Source of the DNA: Plantibacter sp. VKM Ac-2880 | Lineage (GTDB): Bacteria; Actinomycetota; Actinomycetes; Actinomycetales; Microbacteriaceae | Length of the DNA: 64,000 bases | Assembly: GCF_015351235.1 (NCBI RefSeq) | Contig: NZ_JADKSJ010000001.1 | Location: 434,001 to 498,000 of the forward strand | Direction: 5' to 3' | Shown: piece after piece, positions 2-40,086 of the stretch | How the letters are laid out: each line of letters starts with the position of its first letter | How positions within the stretch are numbered: the stretch's first letter is position 1 | Program-made: the position numbers and the translations under genes | Notes under the pieces: generated by a model | What the model saw: only the letters and a program-made list of their open reading frames with translations | What the model was told of the DNA's origin: nothing | The model's database searches: none

Positions 2-3000
2 CTGGACACGCCCGAGGACAACATCGACAAGACGCTGTACTACCGCTGGTGGCTCATGCGCTTCAACTTCCTCGACGCGGACATCCCCGGCAACGACTAC
101 CAGTTCCCCACCTCGATGGAGGGCGTGCTCGGGTACAACAACGCGATCGTGCTCACCACAGGCATGTTCATCGACGACCTCAAGTACTTCCGCAATCCGA
201 TCTACTCCTACGGCCCGTGGGTGTCGGCGGGGGAGACCTCGAAGAGCTACAAGTTCGTCGACAACCCGGGCGACCCGGCGAACTGGTCGAACAGCTACAC
301 GCAGTACATCTCCGAGGCCGCGTGGCGCTCGTACCAGCTGCACGGCGGACCGACGGCGATCGCCGAGAACCTGGCGGAGTACGCCGAGGACGATGTGAAG
401 GGCCTCCTCGACGCCTACGACACCGACGACAGCGGCCTCATCGACTACAACTGGGGTGCGATGACGGGCAACGACGCCGACGCGGTGTCGTTCCACGAAC
501 GTCCGAACGCGTACATGGACCGCACCGAGAACGCGTACCTGTACTCCAACGCGCTCGCTTCGGCCGCCGCCTACCGGACGGCCGGCAACGAGGCGAAGGC
601 CGTCGAGATGGACGAGTTCGCCCAGGGCATCAAGGACAAGGTCGTCGAGCTCCTCTGGGACGCCGACGCGAAGGTCCTGAAGCACCGGTTCACGTCCGAT
701 GGCAAGCTGGCGAAGTGGAAGGAGATCAACAACTTCTACCCCTTCACCGTCGGCCTCATGCCGAAGCCGGGCGACGCGGACTACGACGACGACTACGTCA
801 AGGCGCTCGACCTCTTCGCGGACGACGCCCAGTACCCGATCTTCCCCTTCTACACGGCGAACCAGGCCGACCAGGCGGACTACGGCGGGCCGGGCAGCAA
901 CAACTTCTCGGTGATCAACTCCACCGTGACGTTCCGCATGCTGGCGAAGGTGCTACGCGACTACCCCACGGAGGCGATCGACGCCGAGTGGTACAAGAAG
1001 CTCCTGTACTGGAACGCCTGGTCGCACTACCAGAACGGTGGCGACAACCGCCTGCCCGACCAGAACGAGTTCTGGTCCGACGGCGACGCCGACCCGCAGA
1101 ACATCGGCTACCGCTCCTGGATCCACCACACGATCCTCGGCGCGACGAACTTCACGATGATCGAGGACACCATGGGCCTCCGTCCGCGGAGCGACGCGAA
1201 GATCGAGCTCGACCCGATCGACATCGACTGGGACCACTTCACGGCGAACAACATCGCCTTCCGCGACCAGGACCTCACGATCACCTGGGATGCTCCGGGC
1301 GGTGAGCGCCACTACGGCGACAGCGTCCCCGAGGGCTACTCGGTGTTCCTCGACGGCAAGCTCGCCTTCACCATCGACTCCCTGAGCAAGGTCGTCTACG
1401 ACCCCGAGACGGGCACGGTCGAGGTGGCGGACGACGTCACCGTCCTGTCCTCGACGACCGCCTCGCTGCAGGCACCGCAGGACGTCTCCTTCGCCGCCGG
1501 TGACCGGGTCGTCGACCTGTTCGCCAAGGCCGGCGCCGACGTGGACCCGGCCAGTGCCGGATCCGCGAACGCCGCCGAGGGTGCTGAGGTCAGCGCGAGC
1601 TTCTCGGCACCGAGCCGCCCCGCCACCGCGGCGGTGGACGGCACGACCGCCAACGAGCCCTTCTGGGGCACCGCTGGGTCGCCGAACGCGAAGGACTCGC
1701 TCGTGGTCGAGCTCGGAGGCACGGAGACCTTCGACGACGCCAGGGTGTACTTCTACAACTCCTCGTCCACCGCCACCGTGCAGGGGTACTCGGAGCCGAC
1801 GACGTACTCGCTCGAGGTCCGGAACGGCGACACCTGGACGGCGATCCCGGCCCAGGCCCGTGGCCCCGTCTACCCGCGAGCCAACTACAACCGCGTCCAG
1901 TTCCCCGAGGTCACCGGCGACGCCGTGCGACTGACGGTCAACCACGCCGCCGGATTCAAGACGGGGGTGAAGGAGCTCCAGCTCTTCGCGACCGGCGTGG
2001 AGGCGCCGGCGTCCACCAACCAGGCTCCATCGGTGAACGCCTGGGTCGACCAGGCGAACTCGGCCGGTGGCACGCTCGCGCTCGTCGGCGAGGTCAAGGA
2101 CGACGGGCTGCCGCTCGGTGACGTGACCTCCTCGTGGAGCGTGGTCGACGCGCCGCAGGACGGGCTCGTCATCTTCGGCGACGCCACCTCGGCATCGACG
2201 ACCGCGAGCTTCACCGCCGAGGGGGCGTACACACTGCGCCTCACCGCGAGTGACGGCGAACTCACCAGCACGAAGGACCTCGTCGTCCAGGGTGCGGTGT
2301 CCGCGGGTGGTCAGAACGTCGCCCGTGAAGCGACGCCGACGGGTGAGTTCACGGCGGGATGGAACAACGTCAACGCGGTGAACGACGGCACCGTGCTCCA
2401 CAGCGGTGGGTCGCAGGCCGACATCTGGGGCACCTGGTCGGGCAGTCGTCCGGCCACGAGGTGGCTGCAGTACGACTGGGCGAACCCGGTCAGGGTCGAC
2501 TCCGCGACGGTGTCGTTCTGGGCCGACCAGACGAACCCCGCCGCAGGCTCCGGCGTGAACGTGCCGAAGGCCTGGAAGGCGCAGTACTGGACCGGCGACG
2601 CCTGGGCCGACGTCACGGGCGCGTCCGCGTACGGCGTCGAGCGCGATGCACCGAACGCCGTCGAGTTCGACGCGGTGACCACGACCAAGCTCCGCCTCGT
2701 GCTGAGCGCGGCCGGTCCCGGCACCGGGGCCGACCCGTACGCCGGTGTCGCGGTCAGCGAATGGGAGGTGTTCGCGGTCGCCCCGACGGCGATCGAACCC
2801 ATCGACGTACGCACCACCACCGGTGTCGTGCCGACGCTGCCGTCGACGGTCGACGCGACGTTCGCGGACGGCAGCCACGCCGACCTCCCGGTCTCGTGGG
2901 CGTCGATCCCACCCGAGCAGGTCGCGGGTGAGGGCAGCTTCTCGGTCGTCGGTCTCGTGACCGGTTCAGCGGTGCCCGCGAAGGCGACCGTCTGGGTGCG

Positions 3001-5299
3001 GGCGACCGCTCCGGGCCAGATCAACGCCGTCGATCCCGTCGCGGTCACCACCGCAGCCGGGGTCGCCCCGGCCCTGCCGGCCTCGCTCGGCGTCCTCTAC
3101 AACGACGGGTCCCGCGAGGACCTGCCGGTGACGTGGGCGACCGTCGACCCGGCGGCGTATGCGGCCGAAGGCGTCTTCGAGGTCGCGGGAACGGTCGACT
3201 CGGCCATCCCTGGCGTGAAGGCGGCCACCGCCACGGTGACCGTCGGTGCCGGCGGCGGCGAGGAGGACGACACTGCTCCGGTGGTCGCGCTCACCGTCGA
3301 CCCAGCGGCTCCGGCTTCGGGTTGGCACACGGGAGCGGCGACCGTCGCGGTCACCGCAACCGACGACCGCGACTCGGCGCCCGTCGTCGAGGTGTCGGTC
3401 GACGCCGCCGCCTGGGTGCCGTACACCGGCCCGATCGCCGTGAGTGGGGATGGTGTCCACACCGTCGCCGCCCGCGCGACCGACGCCACCGGCAACCGCT
3501 CCGCCGCCTCCGACGTCACCGTCCGGATCGACGCGACCGCACCGCAGGTGACCCCGGTCGCCGACGCTGCGGCCCGCACGGTCAAGGCGACCGCGACGGA
3601 CGCCGGTTCAGGCCTCGCCTCCATCGAGGTCCGCATCGGCGACGCGCCGGAATGGACGCCCTACACCAAGGCGGTCCTCGTGGGCCTGGAGGAGACCACG
3701 GTCCACCTCCGTGCCACCGACACCGCCGGCAACGTCTCCGCCGAGACGAGTGTCGTCGTGCCGAAGAGTGACGGCCAGCTGCGCCGGAACGTCGCGATCG
3801 GAGCCGTCCCCACGGCCTCGTTCACGGCCGCCTGGAATACGGTGGACGGTCTCAACGACGACGTCGCTCCGACCTCGTCGGGTGACGTCACGCCGAACGA
3901 CAACGCGAACGTCTGGGGTGCCTGGCCGCAGATCGGTCAGCAGTGGGTGCAGTACGACTGGGCCCAGGCGGTCACCGTCGGCGAGACCGGGGCGTACTTC
4001 GTCTCGAACCTCGACGACGCAGGACTCGGCATCGAGGTTCCCGAGTCCTGGAAGGCGCAGTACTGGGACGCCGAGGCCGGAGACGGCGCCGGCGCGTGGG
4101 TCGACGTCGAGGCGCTCGGCGCCTACGGGACCGAGGTCGACGCGTTCAACGCGGTCGCCTTCACCCCGGTGACGACGACGAAGCTGCGTCTGCTCCTCGA
4201 GGCCAGTGGCACCGAGAGCGGCAAGGGGAGCCTCGGGATCAAGGAGTGGCAGGTGTTCGAGGCGGCCGACCAGCCGGTCCCGGACGTCACCGCTCCGGTC
4301 GTGACCACGGCGGTCACCCCCGAGCGACCCGCTTCCGGCTGGTTCCGCGAGGACGTGAGCGTCTCGGCGACCGCCGTCGACGACCGCGACCTCATCGCGA
4401 CCCTCGAGGTCCGGGTCGGAGCCGGCGAGTGGGCGGCCTACACCGGTCCGGTCGTCGTGAGCGCTGACGGGGCCACCACGGTCTCCTTCCGCGGGACGGA
4501 CGCCGCCGGCAACGTGTCGGAGCCGTCGGTGGTCGAGGTGCGGCGCGATGCGACCGTCCCGACGGCCGCCGTGACGGTCGACCAGACCGCCCGCACCGTC
4601 ACGGTGACCGCCGAGGACGCGCACTCCGGTGTCGCGTTCACGGAGGTCCGGGTCGGCGACGGGGCGTGGGCGACGTTCACCGCTCCGGTCGCGGTCGGTG
4701 ACGCGGCGACCACGGTGGCCGTCCGTGCCACCGACGTCGCCGGTAACGTCTCGGAGTCCGTCTCCGTCGACGTCCCCGCGAAACCCGTCACGCCGGAGCC
4801 GACACCGACCCCGGTCGACCCGGAGCCGACACCCGGCCCCAGTGAGCCGAGCGGTTCGCTGACCGGTGACGAGGTGCTGCGACTCGGTGTCACGAGCGTG
4901 GCCCCCGGCGGAGCATTGCCGGTGTCGCTGACGGGAGCCCAGCCCGGCGCGGTGTTCCGCGTCGAGCTGCGGTCGACGCCGGTGACGCTGGGCACGCTCA
5001 CGGTGGGCGCCGATGGCACGGCGAACGCGGTCTTCACCGTCCCGTACACGATCACGGCCGGCGTCCACACGCTCGCCCTGGTCCTGCCGGGTGGTGAGGT
5101 GACGGCGCAGGTGACCGTCATCACGCCGGGTGCCAGCACGCCGGACGCCATCGCGTCGACCGGTGTGCCCGAGGAGGCCGGTACCTTCGGTCGCCTCGCC
5201 GCCCTCGCGGTGCTCCTCGGAGCCGCCGCCGTGCTGATCGCCCGCCAACGGGCTGGACGCACGCCACTCGAGCGCGGACCGGCGGGACCGCTCGGCTGA
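2..5299 (+). CDS. Large secreted modular glycosidase, MGH1/GH63-like with discoidin and Ig-like domains and wall anchor (5' end missing)
   Basis: The open frame enters from the left edge, so the N-terminus and signal peptide lie outside. The first ~430 residues (to about nt 1290) look like an (alpha/alpha)6-barrel of the mannosylglycerate-hydrolase-like/GH63 group (YYRWWLMRFNF, GVLGYNNA, DRTENAYLY). Then come three F5/8C (discoidin) carbohydrate-binding-like modules (about 1560-2005, 2310-2790, 3770-4270), a PKD/Ig-like module (2020-2300), two Big_4-like modules (2790-3245) and OmpL47-like Ig repeats (3270-3765, 4280-4780). A Pro/Glu/Thr linker (~4790-4860), an IASTG sorting-type motif, a hydrophobic helix and RQRAGR end the protein, as expected for class E sortase anchoring. 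Likely role: extracellular glycan degradation on the cell wall. The substrate cannot be named. The catalytic assignment rests on overall similarity, and acid/base residues were not assigned. Confidence 0.8.
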   Translation: MDTPEDNIDKTLYYRWWLMRFNFLDADIPGNDYQFPTSMEGVLGYNNAIVLTTGMFIDDLKYFRNPIYSYGPWVSAGETSKSYKFVDNPGDPANWSNSYTQYISEAAWRSYQLHGGPTAIAENLAEYAEDDVKGLLDAYDTDDSGLIDYNWGAMTGNDADAVSFHERPNAYMDRTENAYLYSNALASAAAYRTAGNEAKAVEMDEFAQGIKDKVVELLWDADAKVLKHRFTSDGKLAKWKEINNFYPFTVGLMPKPGDADYDDDYVKALDLFADDAQYPIFPFYTANQADQADYGGPGSNNFSVINSTVTFRMLAKVLRDYPTEAIDAEWYKKLLYWNAWSHYQNGGDNRLPDQNEFWSDGDADPQNIGYRSWIHHTILGATNFTMIEDTMGLRPRSDAKIELDPIDIDWDHFTANNIAFRDQDLTITWDAPGGERHYGDSVPEGYSVFLDGKLAFTIDSLSKVVYDPETGTVEVADDVTVLSSTTASLQAPQDVSFAAGDRVVDLFAKAGADVDPASAGSANAAEGAEVSASFSAPSRPATAAVDGTTANEPFWGTAGSPNAKDSLVVELGGTETFDDARVYFYNSSSTATVQGYSEPTTYSLEVRNGDTWTAIPAQARGPVYPRANYNRVQFPEVTGDAVRLTVNHAAGFKTGVKELQLFATGVEAPASTNQAPSVNAWVDQANSAGGTLALVGEVKDDGLPLGDVTSSWSVVDAPQDGLVIFGDATSASTTASFTAEGAYTLRLTASDGELTSTKDLVVQGAVSAGGQNVAREATPTGEFTAGWNNVNAVNDGTVLHSGGSQADIWGTWSGSRPATRWLQYDWANPVRVDSATVSFWADQTNPAAGSGVNVPKAWKAQYWTGDAWADVTGASAYGVERDAPNAVEFDAVTTTKLRLVLSAAGPGTGADPYAGVAVSEWEVFAVAPTAIEPIDVRTTTGVVPTLPSTVDATFADGSHADLPVSWASIPPEQVAGEGSFSVVGLVTGSAVPAKATVWVRATAPGQINAVDPVAVTTAAGVAPALPASLGVLYNDGSREDLPVTWATVDPAAYAAEGVFEVAGTVDSAIPGVKAATATVTVGAGGGEEDDTAPVVALTVDPAAPASGWHTGAATVAVTATDDRDSAPVVEVSVDAAAWVPYTGPIAVSGDGVHTVAARATDATGNRSAASDVTVRIDATAPQVTPVADAAARTVKATATDAGSGLASIEVRIGDAPEWTPYTKAVLVGLEETTVHLRATDTAGNVSAETSVVVPKSDGQLRRNVAIGAVPTASFTAAWNTVDGLNDDVAPTSSGDVTPNDNANVWGAWPQIGQQWVQYDWAQAVTVGETGAYFVSNLDDAGLGIEVPESWKAQYWDAEAGDGAGAWVDVEALGAYGTEVDAFNAVAFTPVTTTKLRLLLEASGTESGKGSLGIKEWQVFEAADQPVPDVTAPVVTTAVTPERPASGWFREDVSVSATAVDDRDLIATLEVRVGAGEWAAYTGPVVVSADGATTVSFRGTDAAGNVSEPSVVEVRRDATVPTAAVTVDQTARTVTVTAEDAHSGVAFTEVRVGDGAWATFTAPVAVGDAATTVAVRATDVAGNVSESVSVDVPAKPVTPEPTPTPVDPEPTPGPSEPSGSLTGDEVLRLGVTSVAPGGALPVSLTGAQPGAVFRVELRSTPVTLGTLTVGADGTANAVFTVPYTITAGVHTLALVLPGGEVTAQVTVITPGASTPDAIASTGVPEEAGTFGRLAALAVLLGAAAVLIARQRAGRTPLERGPAGPLG

Positions 5300-33983: not shown

Positions 33984-34197
33984 CCCCACAGGCTACTGCG
34001 GCGGGTCGAGCGGGCGGCAGTGCCGATTGCGGGATCGCGGCTCCTCCGCCGCATCGACCCCGTGTCCGCGCCTCGATGCGCTGCTTCGCTGAGCCCCCGC
34101 TGTCAACGCCGGGGACACGATTCGTCCACGTTCAGGGTAGAGGAGTACCGTCAGACGCTGGTGGTCAAGACTGCCTGGTCAGAGGCACGGAGGAATC

Positions 34198-35223
34198 GTG
34201 ACCGGAAACGCAACTACCCGATTCGACAATGTGGCCATGTTGTCGGTGGCGAGCACGCTGCCGTCCGCAGTGGTGACCTCGGTGGAGATCGAAGAGGGCC
34301 TCGCCGCCGCGATGAAACGCGCGCGGCTCCCGAAGGGCATCCTGCGACGCGTCGCCGGCGTCGTCGAGCGACGACACTGGGGACCCGGTGAGAACTCGGA
34401 CGACGCCACGGTGTCCGCCGGTCGCCGCGCGCTCGCCGAGGCCGGTGTGTCGCCGTCGCAGATCGGGCTCATGATCAACACCTCGGTCACGAGGCAGCAC
34501 CTCGAACCGTCCGTCGCCGTGCGCATCCACGACGGCCTCGGGCTCCCGAGCTCCGCCATCAACTTCGACATCGCCAACGCCTGCCTCGGGTTCGTCACCG
34601 GCATGACGATGGCCGCCGCGATGATCCAGTCCGGACAGATCGAGTACGCCCTCATCGTCAACGGTGAGGACGCGAGCGAGGTCCACGCGAACACGATCGA
34701 ACGGCTGAGCGGCAGCACGATCGACCGCGACGACTTCATGAGCGAGTTCGCCTCCCTCACGCTCGGCTCAGGGGCGGCAGCCGCCGTCATCGGCCCGGCC
34801 GACCGCCACCCGGAGGGTCACCGCATCCTCGGCGGCGTCACCCGCGCCGCGACCGAGTTCAACCACCTGTGCGTCGGCAGCGTCGACGGCATGTTCACCG
34901 ACGCACGCGCCCTCCTCAAGGGTGGCCTCGACCTCGTCGTGTCGGCGTGGAAGGAAGCAGCCGGCGACGAGTGGCGCTGGTCGAAAATGGACCGCTACAT
35001 CACCCACCAGGTGTCGTCCATCCACACCGACTCCATGGTGAAGGCCGCGTCGCTCGACCGCAGCCGCGTGCCCGTCACCTACCCCTACCTCGGCAACGTC
35101 GGCCCCGCGTCGATCCCGATCACGCTCGCCGACCAGCAATCGACCCTCACCAAGGGCGACCGCGTCCTGCTCATGGGCGTCGGCTCGGGGTTGAACACCG
35201 GCCTCATGGAACTCGCGTGGTAG
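34198..35223 (+). CDS. oleA: OleA, acyl-CoA Claisen condensing enzyme of olefin biosynthesis
   Basis: The 341-residue thiolase-fold protein resembles 3-oxoacyl-ACP synthase III. It has Cys129 in NACLGF, His270 and Asn300 for the condensing triad, and Glu103 in RQHLEPS. The 26-residue distance between Glu and Cys equals that of characterised OleA (Glu117/Cys143 in Xanthomonas), which separates OleA from FabH. It joins two fatty acyl-CoA molecules head to head to a beta-keto acid. GTG start follows GGAGG. First gene of an operon with the fused oleBC and oleD, which confirms the call. Confidence 0.93.
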   Translation: MTGNATTRFDNVAMLSVASTLPSAVVTSVEIEEGLAAAMKRARLPKGILRRVAGVVERRHWGPGENSDDATVSAGRRALAEAGVSPSQIGLMINTSVTRQHLEPSVAVRIHDGLGLPSSAINFDIANACLGFVTGMTMAAAMIQSGQIEYALIVNGEDASEVHANTIERLSGSTIDRDDFMSEFASLTLGSGAAAAVIGPADRHPEGHRILGGVTRAATEFNHLCVGSVDGMFTDARALLKGGLDLVVSAWKEAAGDEWRWSKMDRYITHQVSSIHTDSMVKAASLDRSRVPVTYPYLGNVGPASIPITLADQQSTLTKGDRVLLMGVGSGLNTGLMELAW

Positions 35224-37886
35224 CGGGCACCGTCGCCGCGAACATCGGGCTCCGCACCACGGGCGTCCGCGCCGCAGGGCTCCCCGGACTCCCCGCCCGG
35301 TACTCGCAGCGCATCGACGTCCCCGGCCGGCTCGCGGACGAGGGCAACACGCGCAACTGGCACTACCTCGACACCGCCGAGGCGCTCACCGAAGCCGGAG
35401 TCGAACCCGTCGGTACCGTGCTCGCCGTCCACGGCAACCCGACCTGGTCGTACCTGTGGCGCTCGCTCGTCACGCAGTCCGTGGAGCAGGCCCGCGAGGG
35501 CGGTACCGCTTGGCGCGTCGTCGCCGTCGACCAGATCGAGATGGGCTGGTCGGAGCGCACCGAGCTCACGCGGACCCTGGAACAGCGGATCGCCGACCTC
35601 GCCGCCTTCACCGAGACGCTCGGGCTCACCGGCCCCGTCGTCACCCTCGGCCACGACTGGGGCGGCGTGATCTCGCTCGGGTGGGCCACCGAGCACCCCG
35701 ACGTCCTCATCGGATCGATGCTCCTCAACACGGCCGTGCACCACCCGGACGGCACGCCCATCCCCGCACCGCTGCGGCTCGCCGGAGCCCGGGGCATGCT
35801 CGGTGCCGGCTCGGTCCAGACCACCGCGTTCCTCGACACCACCCTGGCGCTCGCCGCCCCGCCGCTCGCGAGCGAAGTCCGCGACGCCTATCGCAGCCCG
35901 TACTCGGCTCCCGCTCGGCGCCGCGGGATCGGCGCGTTCGTCGCCGACATCCCGGCGACGCCCGAGCACGTCAGCTTCCCCCGGTTGGAGCGGCTCGCGG
36001 CCGACGTCGCGGAGCTCCGCGTCCCGGCCCTCATGCTGTGGGGCCCGCGCGACCCGATCTTCAGCGACCGGTACCTCGACGACCTCGCCGACCGCCTGCC
36101 CCATGCGCAGGTGCACCGCTTCGCCGGCGCCGGGCACCTCGTCATCGAGGACGCCCCGGTCGCCGAGTCACTGCTGTCCTGGCTCGACGAGCACCTCCCG
36201 CAGGGTCGGGCGACCACGGCCGTCACCGCTGACGCTCCGGCGGCCGACGCCGACTTCGAACCGCTCTGGCGACGCCTCGACGAGCGCCGTGCGGACGACG
36301 CCGACGCCATCGTCGAACAGCGGGGCTCAGGCTCCACCCGTCGCGTCAGCTGGCGCCAGCTCGACGACCGCGTGACCCGCCTCGCCGCCGGCCTCCACCG
36401 CATCGGTGTCCGCCGCGGCGACCGCGTGTCGTTGCTCGTGACGCCGGGGGCCACGCTCACCGCGGTCATCTACGCGTGCCTGCGCATCGGCGCGGTCGTG
36501 GTCGTCGCGGACGCGGGGCTCGGTGTCCGTGGGCTGTCGCAGGCCGTCCGTGGCGCGTGGCCGGCCTATGTCATCGGCGAGACGAAGGGCCTCGCCGCCG
36601 CGCGTGCGCTCGGCTGGCCCGGGGTCAAGATCTCCGCCGCACGACTCCCCGGCGCGACCGCGGCCGCCCTCGGCGTCTCGCACAGCCTCAAGGACCTCCT
36701 CGACGAGAGCGCGGCCCCTGCGCTCCCGTCGGAGCCCGGTCCGGAGGACCTCGCCGCGATCCTGTACACCTCGGGTTCGACCGGCCCGGCGAAGGGGGTC
36801 CGGTACTCGCACGCGCAGCTGTCCTCCCTCAGGGACGTCCTGTCCGCCCACTTCGGGATCACCGCCGAGTCCGGCCTCGTCACCGGCTTCGCACCGTTCG
36901 CGCTCCTCGGCCCGGCACTCGGTGCCCGCTCCTCCACGCCGGAGATGGACATCTCGGCCCCGCGCACGCTCACGGCCCGCGCGGTCGCCGCCGCCGTGGC
37001 CGAGGCGGACGCCGACATCGTGTTCCTCTCACCGGCCGCCATCCTCAACGTCGTGGCGACGGCCGGCGAGCTCGACGACGCCGATCGTCGGGCCCTGCAG
37101 GGCGTCCGCACGGTGCTCTCGACGGGTGCACCGGTGAGCCGTCAGTTGCTCACCGCGCTCGTCGGGGTGCTCCCGAACGCGTCGGCGCACGCCGTCTACG
37201 GCATGACCGAGTGCCTGTTGGTCTCCGACATCACGCTCGACACGATGCCCGGCGACGACTCCGAGCACACGGGCGTGTGCGTCGGGACGCCGATCGGCGG
37301 CGTCGACGTGCGTATCAGCCCGCTCGACGCGGCAGGCCGGGCCACTGGCGAGCTGACGCAGGACGCCGACTGCCTCGGTGAGGTCATCATCTCGGCGGCG
37401 CACCTCAAGTCGCAGTACGACCGCCTCTGGCTGACCGACCGCGCCGCCGTGCGCGACGTCACCGAGGACGGCCGGTGGCACCGCACGGGCGACGTCGGGC
37501 ATCTCGACACCGACGGACGCCTCTGGATCGAGGGTCGCCTGCCGCACGTCATCACCACGCAGGACGGCCCGGTCGCGCCGGTCGGACCGGAGCAGGCGAT
37601 CGAGACGGTGCCGCTCGTGCGTCGTGCCGCGGTCGTCGGTGTCGGCCCGGACGGCCTCCGGCAGTGCGTCGCGATCGTGGAGACCACCCCCGGCTCGAAG
37701 CGGGTCCGGCTCGCCGACGCTGCGCTCGCCGCTGCGGTGCGGGCGGCTTCGCCGCAGCCGCTCGTCGCCGTCTTCGTGGTGCCGGAGCTGCCGACGGACA
37801 TCCGACACAACTCGAAGATCGACCGCACGAGGCTCTCCGAGTGGGCCGACCGCGTCCTGGCCGGCGAACGGCTGAGCGCGCCGTGA
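35217..37886 (+). CDS. oleBC: OleBC fusion: beta-lactone decarboxylase plus beta-lactone synthetase
   Basis: The 889-residue protein fuses two olefin enzymes. Residues ~1-335 form an alpha/beta hydrolase of the haloalkane dehalogenase type (HGNPTW 72-77, nucleophile Asp147 in GHDWGG, His307 in GAGHLV), that is OleB, which decarboxylates beta-lactones to cis-olefins. Residues ~345-889 are an AMP-binding ligase (P-loop YTSGSTGPAKG near 516, YGMTECLL, GDVGHLDTDGRLWIEG), that is OleC, which makes the beta-lactone from the beta-hydroxy acid with ATP. Such fusions are known from actinobacteria. Start taken as GTG 35217, overlapping oleA by 7 bp; the ribosome-binding site is weak, so the start is less certain. 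Confidence 0.92.
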   Translation: MVAGTVAANIGLRTTGVRAAGLPGLPARYSQRIDVPGRLADEGNTRNWHYLDTAEALTEAGVEPVGTVLAVHGNPTWSYLWRSLVTQSVEQAREGGTAWRVVAVDQIEMGWSERTELTRTLEQRIADLAAFTETLGLTGPVVTLGHDWGGVISLGWATEHPDVLIGSMLLNTAVHHPDGTPIPAPLRLAGARGMLGAGSVQTTAFLDTTLALAAPPLASEVRDAYRSPYSAPARRRGIGAFVADIPATPEHVSFPRLERLAADVAELRVPALMLWGPRDPIFSDRYLDDLADRLPHAQVHRFAGAGHLVIEDAPVAESLLSWLDEHLPQGRATTAVTADAPAADADFEPLWRRLDERRADDADAIVEQRGSGSTRRVSWRQLDDRVTRLAAGLHRIGVRRGDRVSLLVTPGATLTAVIYACLRIGAVVVVADAGLGVRGLSQAVRGAWPAYVIGETKGLAAARALGWPGVKISAARLPGATAAALGVSHSLKDLLDESAAPALPSEPGPEDLAAILYTSGSTGPAKGVRYSHAQLSSLRDVLSAHFGITAESGLVTGFAPFALLGPALGARSSTPEMDISAPRTLTARAVAAAVAEADADIVFLSPAAILNVVATAGELDDADRRALQGVRTVLSTGAPVSRQLLTALVGVLPNASAHAVYGMTECLLVSDITLDTMPGDDSEHTGVCVGTPIGGVDVRISPLDAAGRATGELTQDADCLGEVIISAAHLKSQYDRLWLTDRAAVRDVTEDGRWHRTGDVGHLDTDGRLWIEGRLPHVITTQDGPVAPVGPEQAIETVPLVRRAAVVGVGPDGLRQCVAIVETTPGSKRVRLADAALAAAVRAASPQPLVAVFVVPELPTDIRHNSKIDRTRLSEWADRVLAGERLSAP

Positions 37887-38851
37887 CCGTCCTCGTCACC
37901 GGTGCGAGCGGCATGCTCGGCCGCGAGGTCGCCCTGGAGCTGCTTCGCGCGGGTCACCGGGTCCGGGTGTTGCAGCGTGGTCCGGCAGGGCTCGACGGCG
38001 TCGAGGAGGTCCGCGGGTCGATCACCGATGCGGCCGCGGTCGGTCGGGCGATGCAGGGTGTCGACGCCGTCGTCCACCTGGCAGCCAAGGTCTCGTTGGC
38101 CGGTGACCCGGCCGAGTTCGAACAGGTGAACGTCGGCGGGACCGAAGTCGTCCTCGACGCCGCGGAGACGGCCGGGGTGTCGCGGTTCGTCCACATCTCC
38201 TCGCCGTCCGTCGCCCACGGCGGTTCGGCACTCGTGGGCGTCGGCGCGGAACCGGCCGACCCCGGGGCTGCGCGTGGTGAGTACGCGCGGACGAAGGCGC
38301 AGGGGGAGTTGCTCGCCCTCGAGCGGGATCGTCGCGGCTTCGCGGTCGTCGTCGTGCGGCCGCACCTCGTCTGGGGTCCCGGCGATCCGCAGCTCGTGGA
38401 GCGCATCGTCGACCGTGCGCGTCGCGGACGGCTGCCGCTGCTCGACGACGGGACCGCCCTCATCGACAGCACCTACATCGTGAACGCGGCGTCGGCCATC
38501 GTGGCGGCGCACGAGCATGCCGAGACGGCGCATGGGCGGGCGTTCGTCGTGACGAACGGGGAGCCGCGGCCGGTCGGCGAGTTGCTCGCGGGCATCTGCC
38601 GTGCCGCCGGCGTGAAACCGCCGTCCTTCAGCGTCCCGGCGGGCATCGCTCGGGCTGCCGGTGGCCTGGTCGAGCGCCTCTGGAGCATCCGTCCGGGTGC
38701 GGACGAGCCGCCGATGACACGGTTCCTCGCGGAGCAGCTCTCGACCGCGCACTGGTTCGACCAGCGCGACACCCGCGAGGCCCTCCACTGGACGCCGGCG
38801 GTCTCGATCGACGAGGGCCTCGAGCGCCTGGCGGACCACTACCGGGCCTGA
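37883..38851 (+). CDS. oleD: OleD, NAD(P)-dependent beta-keto acid reductase
   Basis: The 322-residue extended short-chain dehydrogenase has the Rossmann GASGMLG (7-13), VHLAAKVS and the catalytic Tyr134/Lys138 (YARTK). It is of the 3-beta-HSD/dihydroflavonol reductase type. In the ole pathway it reduces the OleA product to the beta-hydroxy acid used by OleC. GTG start overlaps the oleBC stop by 4 bp (GTGA), so translation is coupled. About 100 bp without a gene follow before the epoxide hydrolase. Confidence 0.9.
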   Translation: MTVLVTGASGMLGREVALELLRAGHRVRVLQRGPAGLDGVEEVRGSITDAAAVGRAMQGVDAVVHLAAKVSLAGDPAEFEQVNVGGTEVVLDAAETAGVSRFVHISSPSVAHGGSALVGVGAEPADPGAARGEYARTKAQGELLALERDRRGFAVVVVRPHLVWGPGDPQLVERIVDRARRGRLPLLDDGTALIDSTYIVNAASAIVAAHEHAETAHGRAFVVTNGEPRPVGELLAGICRAAGVKPPSFSVPAGIARAAGGLVERLWSIRPGADEPPMTRFLAEQLSTAHWFDQRDTREALHWTPAVSIDEGLERLADHYRA

Positions 38852-38955: not shown

Positions 38956-40086
38956 ATGCGTTCGTTCCGGATCCAGGTGCCCGATGCCGACCTCGACGAG
39001 CTGCGTCGGCGACTCGAGGGAGCCCGCCTGCCGGGGGTGATCGGCGACGCCGCCGATGAAAGCGCGCTGTCGCTCGATCGACTCCGGACGCTCGTCGACC
39101 ACTGGCGCGACGGCTTCGACTGGCGGCGGGTGGAGCGAGATCTGGCGGCCGTCCCGCAGTTCGAAGCGGAGGTCGACGGCCAGCGACTCCACATGGCGCG
39201 GCTACCGGCGGCTGCAGGGGTCACGGAGACGGTCCCGGTCATCCTGTTCCACGGGTGGCCCTACTCGTTCGTCGAGATGCTGCCGCTCGCGACGGCGCTC
39301 GCCGGCCGGGCCGTCGACCTCGGCGGTGGCCGGATGCTCGGGTTCGAGGTGGTCGTCCCGTCGCTCCCGGGATACGGGTTCTCCGCGCCCCTCACCGCTG
39401 ACCGCCCGTTCACCGGCCCGGTGGTCGCCGAGCTCATGCACGGGCTCATGACCGAGGTGCTCGGCCACGCGCGGTACCTCAGCTACGGCGAGGATGTCGG
39501 ATCGACGACGAGCGACTGGCTCGCCGCGCTGCACCCGGAAGCGGTCATCGGGCAGTTCGCGACGCATGCCGCCTTCCCCGCGGCGTCCCGGGCGCAAGAC
39601 CTTTCGGTGCCCGAGCAGGAGTGGCTCGACCGCCACGATCAGGAGTGGGCTCGCGGGCTCGCCTACGCGCGCGTCCAGGCGACCCGACCCGAGATCCTCG
39701 CCGCGGCGCTCAACGACTCACCCATCGGGCTCGCCGCCTGGATCGTCGAGAAGCTCCTCGCCTGGGCTGGTGACGGCGCGTGGTGGACGGACGACGAGCT
39801 GCTGACGACCGTCTCCTTGTACTGGTTCACGCAGAGTATCGGGTCCTCGTTCCGCCCCTACCGCGACCACCCGAAACAGCCGGAACTGCCACTGATCGAG
39901 GTGCCAGTCGCCGTCGCCGTGCAGACCGGAGAGCGTGGGCTCCCGCGCTCCTATGCGGCGCGGACCTACACCGACATCCGCAGTTGGACCGAGCTCGACG
40001 AGGGAGCCCACTTCACCGCCTGGCAGGTGCCGGTCGTGGTCGCCGACCGGATCGAGGCGTTCGCGACGAGCCTGCTCGCTCACTGA
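38956..40086 (+). CDS. Epoxide hydrolase with N-terminal EHN domain
   Basis: The 376-residue protein has an EHN domain (FRIQVPDADLDELRRRLEG, WRRVERDLAAVPQFEAEVDG), oxyanion motif HGWP (99-102) and nucleophile Asp180 in YGEDVGS. The usual GGDWG is replaced by GEDVG. SLPGYGFSAPL and the lid YWFTQSIGSSFRPYRDH match bacterial microsomal-type epoxide hydrolases. It would hydrolyse epoxides to diols. A TAGGTT box lies about 10 bases before ATG, without a ribosome-binding site, so it is probably leaderless and independent of the ole operon. Confidence 0.87.
   Translation: MRSFRIQVPDADLDELRRRLEGARLPGVIGDAADESALSLDRLRTLVDHWRDGFDWRRVERDLAAVPQFEAEVDGQRLHMARLPAAAGVTETVPVILFHGWPYSFVEMLPLATALAGRAVDLGGGRMLGFEVVVPSLPGYGFSAPLTADRPFTGPVVAELMHGLMTEVLGHARYLSYGEDVGSTTSDWLAALHPEAVIGQFATHAAFPAASRAQDLSVPEQEWLDRHDQEWARGLAYARVQATRPEILAAALNDSPIGLAAWIVEKLLAWAGDGAWWTDDELLTTVSLYWFTQSIGSSFRPYRDHPKQPELPLIEVPVAVAVQTGERGLPRSYAARTYTDIRSWTELDEGAHFTAWQVPVVVADRIEAFATSLLAH

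Follow-up and report, generated by a model that had tools for sequence, protein, structure and literature searches.

Does the gene set at positions 34198 to 38851 of the window (the whole stretch of 64,000 nucleotides from Plantibacter sp. VKM Ac-2880 that was analysed) encode a complete route to a long-chain olefin, and where does the unit end? A sequence-only reading had described it as an oleABCD system of a known type with an OleBC fusion, from which long-chain cis-olefins were to be expected. The genes, their residues and the published relatives agree with that expectation. We consider it highly probable that Plantibacter (family Microbacteriaceae, order Micrococcales) carries here a complete and probably functional oleA-oleBC-oleD operon, which would make a cis internal olefin. 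The features of the locus are as follows.

34198 to 35223, plus strand: oleA, 341 aa, GTG start; thiolase-superfamily acyl-CoA condensing enzyme
35217 to 37886, plus strand: oleBC, 889 aa, GTG start; fused beta-lactone decarboxylase (N-terminal) and beta-lactone synthetase (C-terminal)
35415 to 36158, plus strand: OleB domain, Pfam Abhydrolase_1, residues 67-314; Asn74, Asp147, Trp148, Asp279, His307
36186 to 36266, plus strand: OleB-OleC linker, about 27 residues
36288 to 37403, plus strand: OleC domain, Pfam AMP-binding, residues 358-729
37883 to 38851, plus strand: oleD, 322 aa, GTG start; extended short-chain dehydrogenase/reductase; Tyr134, Lys138
38956 to 40086, plus strand: epoxide hydrolase gene; epoxide hydrolase N-terminal and alpha/beta hydrolase domains

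The three-gene ole set was confirmed to be real and intact. The finding is not a matter of chance, because OleA matches the solved structure PDB 3row and OleBC was matched across the genus, the family and the phylum. The sequence GGAGG lies immediately 5' of the GTG start of oleA. In the window, oleA and oleBC overlap by 7 bases and oleBC and oleD by 4 bases (GTGA), so that the overlaps of 7 and 4 bp claimed earlier hold on the window coordinates. OleB was also said to be N-terminal to OleC in one chain, and a single 889-aa frame indeed carries the Pfam hydrolase domain at residues 67-314 and the AMP-binding domain at residues 358-729. A simple scan found no promoter-like or terminator-like site, a result that says little for a GC-rich actinobacterium. 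The antisense frame at 34165-34686 (minus strand) gave no Pfam match at a threshold of E 1e-6 and looks like a GC-rich shadow frame.

The residues named by the sequence-only reading in OleA (Cys129, Glu103, His270 and Asn300), OleB (Asp147 and His307) and OleD (Tyr134 and Lys138) stand at exactly these positions in the window translation. The claimed AMP-binding loop of OleC was found as YTSGSTGPAKGV at residue 517 of OleBC; this statement applies to the window protein only and not to its aligned relatives. Conservation was assessed in alignments of 48 OleA, 50 OleBC and 49 OleD sequences, drawn from 31 loci of the family and at most 19 of a phylum sample, the window included.

OleA consists of ketosynthase III domains (Pfam) and passes the NCBIfam model NF006720 / PRK09258 (438 bits; cut-off 285). 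Its nearest solved structures are PDB 3row, 3s21 and others, with E values from 3.9e-79 (3row) to 1.3e-77. The annotation of 3row and 3s21 reads 3-oxoacyl-[ACP] synthase III; we take these structures and the others to be Xanthomonas campestris OleA. The catalytic tetrad Glu103, Cys129, His270 and Asn300 is invariant in all 48 aligned OleA sequences, including that of the window. When a second OleA was sought in the genome at E 0.001, the sole other match was 29% identical (E 2.7e-13), and this protein would presumably be FabH.

Among the best 60 of 315 PDB matches of OleBC, those to the OleB half are haloalkane dehalogenases and those to the OleC half are adenylating enzymes. OleB is like the haloalkane dehalogenases in sequence and in its set of Asn, Asp, Trp, Asp and His, all five of which (N74, D147, W148, D279 and H307) are present in the window sequence; we assume this to be the dehalogenase-type residue set. 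It differs from these enzymes, however, in scoring below the cut-off of the NCBIfam dehalogenase model (101 bits against 241) and in being fused inside an ole operon. The five residues are unchanged in 48 of 48 aligned sequences covering them, the other two of the 50 OleBC sequences (L087 and L088) not extending over these positions.

The best NCBIfam match of OleC is PRK09274, at 340 below its cut-off of 478, and the second and third best matches are olefin beta-lactone synthetase models. The match to the OleC models extends to about residue 880 and includes Lys867. E665, D759 and K867 are unchanged in the 49 aligned sequences that cover them (L093, one of the 50, is cut and lacks OleC). OleD has the NAD-dependent epimerase / 3-beta-HSD fold (Pfam), and its two best NCBIfam matches are OleD models, of which NF042422 is the better (E 3e-87). 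Y134 and K138 are unchanged in 48 of the 48 sequences covering them, the OleD end being absent from L077 among the 49 aligned. Other positions of OleD are less strict: glycine positions 10 and 13 are altered in 11 and 2 of the 49 sequences, respectively, and Ser107 is replaced by Thr in 4. The scores against the Xanthomonas and Shewanella models lie below the cut-offs, both for OleC (269.5 and 249.8 against 900 and 850) and for OleD (293 and 232 against 580). Since the model names (Xan, Shew) indicate subgroup models, we did not take these scores as a test of the whole pathway.

The sequence-only reading had pointed to the fusion linker as worth comparing. In 47 sequences (L087, L088 and L093 left out), the linker is variable and rich in Ala and Pro, with a length of 19-51 residues and a median of 30 (27 in the window). 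Both composition and length are as expected of a flexible tether. The fusion tethers the last two steps of the pathway, and it is plausible that the beta-lactone is handed on within one OleBC chain.

The reaction chemistry can be proposed from characterised homologues. The key biochemistry of OleC and OleB is reportedly that of Christenson 2017. In the published pathway, OleA condenses a pair of acyl groups, OleD reduces the keto group, and OleC makes the beta-lactone, from which OleB releases CO2 to leave a cis-olefin; OleBCD form a complex (PMC7158056, PMC6463001). In the window, OleA would carry out the head-to-head condensation of two activated fatty acids, giving a beta-keto acid that OleD would reduce to the beta-hydroxy acid. 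From this, the synthetase half of OleBC would form the beta-lactone with ATP, and the OleB half would decarboxylate the lactone to the cis internal olefin. Judging from measured relatives, the product would most likely be an anteiso-branched C27-C29 olefin. Curtobacterium, Clavibacter and Microbacterium are, we assume, other genera of the host's family. In these three, and in all tested genera with ole genes in their genomes, olefins were found by GC/MS according to PMC7158056, which gives C27-C29 olefins for most Gram-positive producers. The earlier expectation of C25-C33 olefins is consistent with this report as regards a long-chain olefin, but its range is wider than the published one.

The genes are kept throughout the genus and in much of the family. 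Full-length OleBC matches were found in all seven Plantibacter genomes, the host included; the protein is 88-97% identical in the six others, and the OleBC locus is 89% identical in Plantibacter sp. VKM Ac-1784 and Plantibacter flavus VKM Ac-2504. With a threshold of E 1e-100, OleBC was matched in 124 of 299 sampled Microbacteriaceae genomes and 35 of 85 genera, some of the 124 genomes matching over part of the protein only. Identity is 54-72% in the family matches and 40-54% elsewhere in the phylum. Of 125 family genomes with a match, we read the loci of 31 closely: the seven Plantibacter genomes and the 24 that scored next best. All 31, the window's locus among them, have oleA, fused oleBC and oleD in this order, and the catalytic residues are likewise kept in every one. 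With start codons picked automatically, the junction of oleA and oleBC shows a 7-base overlap in 22 of the 31 loci, a 4-base overlap in 7 and none in 2, and that of oleBC and oleD a 4-base overlap in 29. In one family genome (G286:C1:1429057-1431700), oleBC looks broken, with two in-frame TGA codons in one of its pieces and the other piece lying in a different open frame. Carriage of oleBC on plasmids was also considered and rejected, as 72,556 plasmid records gave no match at E 1e-60.

Against the six genus relatives, dN/dS was 0.018-0.028 for OleA, 0.076-0.137 for OleBC and 0.060-0.104 for OleD. OleA is the most constrained of the three proteins in this comparison, which fits the published statement that the product profile is determined by OleA (PMC7158056).

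The borders of the operon were analyzed with 11 neighbour genes, five upstream and six downstream, which were searched for at E 1e-15 within stretches of 17 kb. Most of them were found in the six other Plantibacter genomes, and none in any of the 13 loci taken from 11 other genera. Since the neighbours differ in all of these 13 loci, the unit consists of the three ole genes. A longer operon would include the epoxide hydrolase gene, for instance to oxidise the olefin further; this gene lies on the same strand, starts 104 bases past oleD in the window genome and encodes epoxide hydrolase-type domains. In the six other Plantibacter genomes (L055-L060), however, about 1.3 to 5 kb containing differing open frames part it from oleD, and none of the 13 loci of other genera has a homologue at E 1e-15 within 17 kb. 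The neighbourhood comparison led us to reject the gene as a fourth member, and a longer operon is most improbable. The spot 3' of oleD is variable in its own right, with at least three kinds of open frame: one in L055 and L060, one in L057, L058 and L059, and one in L056. Far upstream, at 56-5299 (plus strand), the window encodes a protein of 1747 aa that combines a glycoside hydrolase-like (MGH1-like) domain with an F5/8 type C domain and bacterial Ig-like domains, probably a secreted sugar-cleaving enzyme.

Like oleACD clusters of the lipstatin type, the cluster might instead lead to a beta-lactone natural product and not to an olefin; the sequence-only reading had itself named this alternative. 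Homologues of OleA, OleC and OleD are common to both pathways, and the absence of oleB is given as the sign of a beta-lactone cluster (PMC7064751). The window chain, by contrast, includes an OleB whose Asn, Asp, Trp, Asp and His are intact in each of the 48 covering sequences, and none of the 11 tested neighbours adjoins the ole operon in the 13 loci of other genera. Because OleB is fused and conserved with all five active-site residues, a beta-lactone end product is disfavoured, and we give it hardly any weight. It is also conceivable that the operon is silent or yields little or no product, since Curtobacterium and Clavibacter made only traces of olefin (PMC7158056). Three open frames, the kept catalytic residues and dN/dS values of 0.018-0.137 against the six genus relatives speak against such an operon, which we regard as very unlikely. 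An olefin-forming operon of three genes is the reading that we prefer.

We then ask how far the fused gene extends beyond the host's class. An even sample of 396 phylum genomes was scanned with OleBC at a threshold of E 1e-70, and 19 genomes matched. Two of them are the host and a genome from the same order but a different family; the other 17 are placed outside the host's class because they are labelled 'same phylum' only. These 17 fall in four families with 7, 5, 2 and 3 genomes. OleB and OleC lie in one frame in 15 of the 17 (L076-L086, L089-L092), and oleA and oleD adjoin oleBC in all 15 of these fused loci, oleD being cut by the locus end in L077 and L085. The initial phylum scan showed one TGA within the OleBC match in G580, G684 and G465; on close reading, the frame is without an internal stop in L086 (G580) and L090 (G684). 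The stop at codon 801-813 in L089, L091 and L092 overlaps the oleD start and is therefore the natural end of oleBC. In G407, oleBC is in two pieces at contig ends. The contig of G595 spans OleC with too little OleB to judge the fusion, and His307 is not aligned.

According to a 2020 survey, the Micrococcales are alone among Gram-positive orders in having ole clusters. PMC7064751 describes the oleBC fusion as known in Actinobacteria, typically Micrococcales, with one reported outside that order, and PMC13170169 also records oleBC or oleC in metagenome genomes of Actinobacteriota. Our observation that fused oleBC with oleA and oleD occurs outside the host's class, beyond the Micrococcales of the 2020 survey, is a small extension. 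In our judgement the chances are even that the fusion is an old feature of the Actinomycetota and not a Micrococcales speciality, the three-gene unit having been inherited by or moved into at least four out-of-class families. If the fusion is old in the phylum, this suggests that the tethering of synthetase and decarboxylase has long been kept by selection. The wider spread could help to date the fusion and guide tests of intermediate channelling. A literature search for oleABCD with Acidimicrobiia or Actinobacteria gave none with oleABCD among the matches listed, and one for any two of Plantibacter, olefin and oleA gave none with Plantibacter among those listed; neither is proof of absence from print.

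The ole set allows the prediction that Plantibacter makes long-chain hydrocarbons, and many relatives are expected to produce a long olefin from two fatty acids by means of the same three-gene set. The locus adds one more OleBC for comparison; neither it nor the wider spread of the fusion changes the understanding of the pathway.

With the oleABCD systems of Xanthomonas campestris and Shewanella, the window shares the four activities, and its OleC and OleD match the models from these organisms. OleB and OleC are separate proteins in Xanthomonas campestris and Shewanella, whereas they form one chain in the window. The lipstatin-type oleACD clusters share the OleA, OleC and OleD steps with the window cluster but are described as being without oleB, which is intact here (PMC7064751). 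OleBC itself corresponds to KEGG K25044, named in PMC13170169, and its fusion was already known from actinobacteria (PMC7064751, PMC7158056), as the sequence-only reading had stated. The system, the fusion and the product of related genera have already been published, since these two papers report them. The closest likeness in gene set, order and fusion is to Micrococcus luteus and other Micrococcales, whose operon is written as oleA, oleBC, oleD; the window differs in species only (PMC7158056). The ole cluster of the window is thus an ordinary one of a well-known kind.
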